This document shows, piece after piece, positions 23,107 through 23,715 of a DNA stretch of 64,000 nucleotides. Both the position numbers and the translations under genes were made by a program. This stretch comes from Mastigias papua (Eukaryota; Cnidaria; Scyphozoa; Rhizostomeae; Mastigiidae), in NCBI GenBank assembly GCA_964019165.1, contig OZ025268.1, positions 14,234,859 to 14,298,858 of the forward strand. Reading direction: 5' to 3'. The notes under the pieces are model-generated. The model did not search any database, was not told the DNA's origin, and saw nothing but the letters and a program-made list of their open reading frames with translations. Within the stretch, counting starts at the first letter, position 1, and every line of letters starts with the position of its first letter.

Positions 23107-23233
23107 ATAGCGGTGGAATCTTAAGGTCATTCTATCGTGAGTCCCTCAACGCATCTAGGGCCTTCTCTATGTTTCGGCTATAATGCCTTCTTCAGAGCCA
23201 AGCGTACTTCATAATATTAATTCGGCTAAGGCT
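23107..23233 (-). mobile_element. Inverted partial copy of the 264-bp unit
   Basis: Bases 23107-23233 are the reverse complement of 23439-23565 (sum 46672). They contain the hammerhead-like core on the minus strand (23171-23195) but stop before the tRNA-like part. The small-unit array thus starts with a tail-to-tail inversion, as the PLE does. Confidence 0.85.
23171..23195 (-). ncRNA. Hammerhead-like core (inverted small unit)
   Basis: Minus-strand CTGAAGA, A, GGC-ATTATA-GCC helix, GAAAC. Same sequence as 23477-23501. Confidence 0.45.
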
Positions 23234-23309
23234 AAACGTAGAGAAGGCCCTAGATGCGTTGAGGGACTCACGATAGAATGACCTTAAGATTCCACCGCTA
23301 TTCTTTTGT

Positions 23310-23383
23310 GCCTGGATGGCGCAATTGATTAGCACAGGAGTCTTCTGATCTAAACATCGTGAGTTCGAATCCGCACTGGGGCC
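23310..23383 (+). tRNA. tRNA-like segment, unit 1 (degenerate)
   Basis: D-arm/A-box-like TGGCGCAATTGATTAGCAC and B-box GAGTTCGAATCC are clear. The anticodon-loop position reads CTTCTGA (TCT, Arg-like), but the anticodon stem does not pair well. It probably serves, or served, as an internal Pol III promoter rather than as a tRNA. Confidence 0.5.
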
Positions 23384-23476
23384 AAAATAAATTTTCCAAT
23401 TGTGGTAGCCCACTCATGACTTAGTATTTACCTATGTCAGCCTTAGCCGAATTAATATTATGAAGTACGCTTGGCT

Positions 23477-23501
23477 CTGAAGAAGGCATTATAGCCGAAA
23501 C
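23477..23501 (+). ncRNA. Hammerhead-like core in 264-bp unit
   Basis: CTGAAGA box (position 7 is free in hammerheads), an extra A, helix GGC/GCC with loop ATTATA, then GAAAC. The catalytic boxes match the consensus. Helix III is not obvious, so activity is uncertain. Confidence 0.5.
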
Positions 23502-23573
23502 ATAGAGAAGGCCCTAGATGCGTTGAGGGACTCACGATAGAATGACCTTAAGATTCCACCGCTATTCTTTTGT

Positions 23574-23647
23574 GCCTGGATGGCGCAATTGATTAGCACA
23601 GGAGTCTTCTGATCTAAACATCGTGAGTTCGAATCCGCACTGGGGCC
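23574..23647 (+). tRNA. tRNA-like segment, unit 2 (degenerate)
   Basis: Same sequence as 23310-23383, shifted by 264 bp. Confidence 0.5.
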
Positions 23648-23715
23648 AAAATAAATTTTCCAATTGTGGTAGCCCACTCATGACTTAGTATTTACCTATG
23701 TCAGCCTTAGCCGAA

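Follow-up and report, generated by a model that had tools for sequence, protein, structure and literature searches.

Hammerhead ribozymes are known from several kinds of retroelement, and two of these are close to the repeat described here. First, SM-alpha and Sj-alpha of Schistosoma are SINE-like repeats that carry a hammerhead. SINE copies derived from tRNA-Gln and similar to SM-alpha have been reported (PMC2770079), and the SM-alpha hammerhead is of type I (PMC8490949). Second, Penelope-like elements (PLEs) carry hammerheads whose role is called a mystery in a review (PMC7761336), and PLEs have been proposed as partners of retrozymes (PMC7229834). What does the hammerhead do in the life cycle of PLEs and retrozymes? 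This is an open question, to which copy ends in the genome are relevant.

The locus is a tandem array of a 264-bp unit within a 64,000-nt stretch of Mastigias papua DNA, referred to here as the window. An initial annotation had proposed that the unit is a SINE/retrozyme hybrid. SM-alpha is itself SINE-like and has a hammerhead, so the hybrid kind is already known. The proposal is favored by that precedent, by the hammerhead geometry and copy ends, and by the tRNA-like boxes; against it, the unit has no Rfam match to a tRNA or a hammerhead. The likeness to the Schistosoma elements is one of description, and there are clear differences: the 264-bp unit has a type III geometry over the unit junction, an extra core nucleotide, insertion sites in (TA)n, and PLE-like fold-backs. 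Quite probably, a tRNA-headed retrozyme inserted here to give the array: a high-copy, non-coding and non-autonomous element with a junction-spanning type III hammerhead, which was probably moved by a PLE and whose template 5′ end was made by the ribozyme.

Array anatomy and a predicted junction hammerhead

The 264-bp periodicity claimed for the array is confirmed by TRF (period 264, 1.9 copies, 99% matches, 23234–23722). Unit positions are numbered u1–u264 after the full unit at 23451–23714 (+ strand; TRF and self-BLAST), beyond which the array continues for about 3 bases into a next unit. From left to right there is (TA)n (23051–23106, TRF), an inverted arm from u253 to u116 (23107–23233, − strand), a direct arm that begins with a partial unit, u48–u264 (23234–23450, + strand; self-BLAST), the whole unit with its ~3 additional bases, and (TA)n again (23718–24006, TRF). 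While the (TA)n at both ends had been recorded in the initial annotation, the inverted arm was absent from it. The 128 nt of this arm (23106/7–23233) are 100% complementary to 23439–23566; hence, the array is a fold-back with ~1.8 direct units. The sense 5′ end of the inverted arm, 23233, is the base just after the predicted hammerhead cut. Two other copies in the window, previously placed at 43658–43905 and 18411–18480, are both real, with coordinates close to these. The third copy (43659–43904, + strand, u28 to ~u6; self-BLAST match 43659–43898, 96.7%) has its 3′ end in (TA)n and its 5′ end in non-(TA) DNA, and the fragment (18410–18488, + strand, u166 to ~u244; self-BLAST 89.9%) lies between (TA)n.

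Within the unit, the core motifs CTGAAGA and GAAAC lie at u27 and u47, and the A and B boxes of a tRNA-like segment at u131 and u176, about the ~75-nt spacing originally claimed. The lack of coding capacity is likewise borne out, the longest ATG-start ORF wholly within the array being 39 aa. The spacer u57–u115 (23507–23565, + strand) looks like a diverged, antisense-oriented version of the tRNA-like segment; under a lenient score 3 of 3000 shuffles were as good, and under a strict score 60 of 3000 were. The unit RNA is accordingly predicted to fold as a rod. Its predicted circular fold has an energy of −85.9 kcal/mol, as compared with −58.0 ± 8.9 kcal/mol for 100 shuffles, none of which was as low, and forcing the hammerhead within that fold costs 2.6 kcal/mol. 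Could the fold-back and tandem structure be an artefact of assembly? Long (TA)n is hard to assemble, and the neighboring inverted PLE pair, PLE-2, has arms that are 100% complementary over 1,990 nt. However, many loci on different contigs show this anatomy too, and rotifer Penelope inserts have been described with it (PMC3846280), making an artefact barely credible.

A type III hammerhead is predicted over the tandem junction (23432–23505, + strand), with the cut at 23438^23439, i.e., after u252; it is complete only where one unit meets another, or at least the first bases of another. The + strand of the junction reads CTATGT-C^AGCC...GGCT-CTGAAGA-A-GGC...GCC-GAA-ACATAG. Stem III (23432–23437/23500–23505) has 6 bp, stem I (AGCC/GGCT) has 4 bp and a further 3 bp past a small internal loop, the core CTGAAGA starts at 23477, and stem II (GGC/GCC) has 3 bp. 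One extra A sits between CTGAAGA and stem II; the conserved core (CUGANGA, GAA), the three stems, the UH at the cut, and the open stem III otherwise have the type III form. A viroid hammerhead with an additional nucleotide in its core is on record, according to a title cited in PMC6155905. How easily would such a structure arise by chance? In shuffles that kept the core, stems of equal quality (stem I ≥4, stem III ≥6) occurred anywhere in 72 of 20,000 units, and a type III arrangement as good occurred within 80 nt upstream in 26 of 20,000. A descriptor scan of the window returned one type III hammerhead and no type I, including the minimal form in the unit; 30 shuffled windows gave 1 type III and 13 type I. 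CTGANGA...GAAAC cores number 10 in the window, 9 of them with stem II and the extra nucleotide (7 in PLE-type repeats and 2 in the 264-bp unit, all 8–241 nt from a (TA) array), while 50 shuffled windows held 32 such cores, 4 with stem II.

Several results count against the prediction. Rfam covariance models, which the initial annotation had put forward as a check on the hammerhead, gave no match in the window (E ≤ 10 around the array, run without a known-hammerhead positive control) or in 8 fetched genomic loci (E ≤ 0.5). Fold energy was set aside as support, since that of the hammerhead region is ordinary relative to shuffles (z 0.13); the minimum-energy fold of the junction (−13.0 kcal/mol) is not exactly the hammerhead, which when forced reaches −12.6 kcal/mol. 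A 19-row junction alignment of the 264-bp family revealed no compensatory changes by eye. The hammerhead of the initial annotation therefore stands on its geometry and on copy 5′ ends at the predicted cut, as a type III structure over the junction rather than a type I, and with no Rfam match.

Copy ends in two families

The cut site was predicted from geometry before copy ends were examined. The host assembly (346.8 Mb) was then searched with the array as the query, and scoring of the best 40 of 784 first-look candidates gave 145 matches at 40 places, confirming the mobile family that had been proposed. Set 1 consists of 39 fetched places outside the array and the three window loci (42 loci, 72 arms). 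The query for set 1 contained one cut-site junction, so a second search used u122–250 only; the best 40 of 1170 candidates were scored, and 23 places absent from set 1 (41 arms) form set 2. An ad hoc script that chains k-mers delimited the arms. Sampling was confined to the top-scored copies, and both sets are thereby biased to young, intact ones. The 264-bp family is high-copy. Tandem copies are present elsewhere, for example in arms of 1,309 nt (L020, about five units) and 1,657 nt (L044), and the family thus has what marks a metazoan retrozyme, namely short non-coding tandem repeats with a predicted hammerhead. Pattern scans of viral contigs and genome contigs gave 0 matches.

The 5′ end is exactly u253, the base after the predicted cut, in 11 of the 72 arms of set 1 (best 40 of 784; binomial 5.6e-15 at a chance per end of 1 in 264, assuming an independence that the arms do not fully have) and in 4 of the 41 arms of set 2 (best 40 of 1170; binomial 1.9e-5). 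Among the 11 are the window array, where the coincidence was first noticed, and two arms of only 18 and 23 nt. Three arms starting at u253 lie outside fold-backs (L020, L024, and L027), and (TA)n immediately flanks two of these; L024, a monomer of 253 nt, extends from the predicted cut to u241. The remaining sampled arms, 61 of 72 in set 1, 37 of 41 in set 2, and 32 of 48 in the second family described below, have 5′ ends elsewhere. The 3′ ends are of two kinds, short (u228–249, mostly u241) and long (u264–u11), with 37 short, 31 long, and 4 other in set 1 (best 40 of 784) and 17 short, 21 long, and 3 other in set 2 (best 40 of 1170). They run into TATATA in 65/72 and 38/41 arms, respectively, and one short end is combined with one long end in 19/24 fold-backs of set 1 and 14/15 of set 2. 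The end of the inverted arm at u116 had been considered as a trace of Pol III termination; this was dropped because 3′ ends lie mostly at u241 or u2–u11, and at u116 only once. Two tandem junctions carry extra bases at the predicted cut or no more than one base from it: TTTAA at L030:1121–1220, and an A-run joined to u12 at L037:975–1061.

An ordinary tRNA-derived SINE, moved by a LINE and containing a hammerhead-like motif by chance, would also be dispersed, have a high copy number, and begin with a tRNA-like head, and the window includes a LINE-like reverse transcriptase frame (34069–36183). It would not be expected to have the tandem and fold-back structure, the (TA)n ends, or the 5′ ends at the predicted cut; this reading is already disfavored and is very improbable. 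The LINE-like frames as a whole (34069–37508, − strand) include a strong reverse transcriptase domain (106.6 bits), and the adjoining frame is endonuclease-like by eye.

A second family, dissimilar in sequence to the first, has a unit of 241 bp, in which a tRNA-Ser(gga)-like segment is intact (Rfam tRNA, 59.4 bits). It is found in L020 (2486–2990, tandem) and L025 (1420–1681), and the window has a monomer at 57982–58240 (− strand, between (TA)n) and another at 26308–26567 (− strand), each starting at its predicted cut. The junction can form stem III GGTTACT/AGT(A/G)(A/G)CC, C17, stem I GC(bulge)AGCT/AGCTGC, a core UUGANAA with an extra A, stem II GGC-GAAA-GCC, and GAA. The stems are those of a hammerhead, but the core is non-canonical, with C3 changed to U and G8 to A together (U3–A8); a double change at the C3/G8 positions rescues the single changes (PMC11167929). 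When the terminal repeat of a window copy is joined, the minimum-energy fold is the hammerhead (−20.2), while that of the real L020 tandem has a shifted stem I (−18.8; forced hammerhead −14.5). Shuffles were as good in 38 of 20,000 cases, or in 320 of 20,000 with looser stems.

For this family, too, the cut was predicted before end-mapping. A search with its tRNA part, in which the best 40 of 1195 candidates were scored, gave 33 new places (L087–L119); together with L020 and L025, these make 35 loci with 48 arms. The 5′ end falls exactly after the predicted cut in 16/48 arms (best 40 of 1195; 1.5e-26 if independent). At the other end, 32/48 arms stop 20 bases past the predicted cut (v20), and 42/48 run into TATATA. 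Tandem dimers and trimers are represented by arms of ~500 and ~740 nt. Ends in (TA)n are the rule, but there are few fold-backs among the 48 sampled arms. The two families share an architecture but have stem III sequences that are unrelated, and may be taken as the nearest thing to covariation. A joint between them occurs at L025:1405–1430, where the tail of a 264-bp unit (CCTATGTCAGC) is followed without a gap by the beginning of a second-family unit, as though a single template or target had linked both families at their cut sites.

What do these ends mean? Both families have tandem or fold-back copies in (TA)n sites and a pile-up of 5′ ends at the predicted cut, and this coincidence in the genomic copies suggests that cleavage really occurs when the element jumps. 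Alternatively, the hammerhead could be a relic of PLE pseudo-LTR ancestry, with the 5′ ends marking a hot spot for reverse-transcriptase stalling or template switching at structured RNA. Indeed, the window is rich in PLE-type cores that have this extra nucleotide, some of the other 5′ ends (u28 and u48) fall inside the motif as well, the core of the second family is non-canonical, and the PLE PAc inserts without cleavage in vitro (PMC11167929). However, stalling would be expected inside stems and not at an unpaired cut position, whereas the ends are base-exact at the predicted scissile bond in two families whose stem sequences are unrelated; moreover, the stem III partner is kept in both. A relic with stalling is therefore unlikely.

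Possible promoter, candidate helper, and proposed mechanism

The tRNA-like segment lies at 23310–23383 in the first direct unit (+ strand; A box 23317, B box 23362) and at 23574–23647 in the full unit (+ strand; A box 23581, B box 23626). Its cloverleaf is decayed: the Rfam tRNA model has no match on the 264-bp unit at E ≤ 10, and ARAGORN detects the segment, in sense, only at thresholds lowered to 70%, a relaxed scan that gave 16 rows at seven window places and 18 rows in 30 shuffled windows. Both boxes are present in all three full copies in the window, and the 72 arms of set 1 (best 40 of 784) contain 79 exact A-box and 90 exact B-box matches. A Pol III promoter, as initially annotated, is hence only plausible: the boxes are there, and the tRNA models respond poorly. 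The segment may be a Pol III promoter head as in SINEs, or may derive from one, and this is the weakest step of the proposed mechanism. TTTT occurs at u118 and u206, and the latter could halt Pol III upstream of the hammerhead. There is also a cluster of 5′ ends at u118–123, the start of the segment, in 11/41 arms of set 2 (best 40 of 1170; the query began at u122, which may bear on the cluster) and 3/72 arms of set 1 (best 40 of 784). Such a cluster would be consistent with Pol III starts or with 5′ processing of the tRNA type, and is an indirect hint. It is conceivable, and a reading to be taken seriously even if somewhat doubtful, that the hammerhead works while the tRNA-like segment has no promoter role, flanking or Pol II promoters driving transcription as they would in an ordinary metazoan retrozyme. 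The decayed cloverleaf and the TTTT runs are consistent with this; the retention of the boxes, the u118–123 ends of set 2 (though few in set 1), and the intact, Rfam-positive tRNA of the second family argue for a promoter.

Which enzyme might move the element? PLE-2 (18619–23050), an inverted pair of a Penelope-like element between (TA)n, adjoins the array and is a candidate helper type. Its frames encode a reverse transcriptase and a GIY-YIG match below the curated cut-off. The PLE-2 copies in the window (18619–23050, 26085–26237, and 44034–44204) are each a fold-back pair between (TA)n, and one arm extends 48 bases beyond the other in all three. PLE-2 adjoins all three window copies of the 264-bp family, which amounts to two independent places, since two of the copies flank one PLE-2. 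No sequence common to the 264-bp unit and an autonomous PLE was seen within the window. Nonetheless, because of this adjacency, and because the window PLEs and the 264-bp family have (TA)n, the fold-back form, and the extra-nucleotide core in common, the enzyme would most likely come from a PLE. Indeed, inverted and direct copies, two 3′ ends, and AT-rich sites, the anatomy of a non-autonomous PLE, are all found in the 264-bp family.

Other features of the repeats in this region can be listed briefly. The left arm of PLE-2 is broken near 26164, no more than one base from the type I cut predicted for it; the break is a 12-nt deletion with a one-base ambiguity and was not counted. A PLE-like reverse transcriptase frame at 24007–25680 has a hammerhead-like core in its inverted left part (24084, − strand), and another such frame, at 254–2179 (− strand), is 64% identical to PLE-2 over 1,457 nt. 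The PLE-type core CTGATGA A GGC TTGT GCC GAAACG occurs in the window at 57770–57831 and at L020:3110–3240, in the latter case in a perfect-looking fold-back. A 13-bp tandem repeat, ATCCAACAATAGT, occupies window positions 61077–61160 (6.5 copies, 100% matches). Apart from the repeats, an aquaporin-like exon had four protein matches, among which Solemya velum (54% identity) is the single named species.

The proposed mechanism is as follows. A transcript of several units, which Pol III may have initiated at the tRNA-like head, would cut itself at the hammerhead of each junction. A nick in (TA)n would then prime reverse transcription of the cut RNA at an AT-rich place near the next cut, either ~12 nt before it (u241) or ~14–23 nt after it (u2–u11; v20), and reverse transcription would end by running off the 5′ end that the ribozyme had made. 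If synthesis began a second time, now with the other 3′ end, a fold-back would result. The PLE PAc provides a described case of internal initiation (PMC11167929), and mobilization of an unrelated gene in trans by Penelope pLTRs has been reported (PMC3846280). Counting against the mechanism, ribozyme cleavage is dispensable for PAc insertion in vitro (PMC11167929).

What would follow? First, cleavage by the second family, should it occur, would provide a natural example of a hammerhead with a U3–A8 core pair. Second, end-mapping makes the question testable in other genomes. A broader proposal, which we offer tentatively and at a little short of an even chance, is a class of Pol III-driven, PLE-mobilized retrozymes with at least two families, in which the tRNA head starts the transcript, a type III hammerhead (U3–A8 in one family) makes the template 5′ end, and RNA circles possibly form. 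If this proposal holds, there would be direct genomic evidence of ribozyme cleavage as a life-cycle step of an animal retroelement.

Comparison with described retroelements

The type III geometry, the PLE-like anatomy, and the end-mapping are new here for tRNA-headed hammerhead elements. The open-access literature, as far as it was covered, contained no type III hammerheads in tRNA-headed animal elements and no PLE-moved SINEs; this partial coverage does not establish their absence from print. The metazoan non-LTR retrozymes are alike in their short tandem units (150–450 bp), hammerhead, highly self-paired predicted RNA, and coexistence with PLEs (PMC7229834). They differ in three ways. First, the published ones are type I (PMC7229834), whereas the 264-bp unit is type III and fails as a type I. 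Second, the accessible part of the same source mentions no tRNA-like part (PMC7229834), whereas the 264-bp unit has one. Third, RNA circles have been demonstrated for those elements (PMC7229834), while for the 264-bp unit they are hypothetical. The LTR retrozymes of plants have type III hammerheads in a dimeric arrangement, as does the 264-bp unit; their own features include LTRs, a primer binding site, and a polypurine tract (PMC7229834). Like the 264-bp family, PLEs have inverted and direct copies, an optional 3′ tail, AT-rich sites, and hammerhead motifs (PMC3846280, PMC11167929), and Penelope pLTRs with a tail pair short and long 3′ ends in the manner of the 264-bp fold-backs (PMC3846280). 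Unlike PLEs, the 264-bp unit has no reverse transcriptase or endonuclease frame, and its predicted hammerhead is type III, whereas those of PLEs are minimal type I (PMC7761336).
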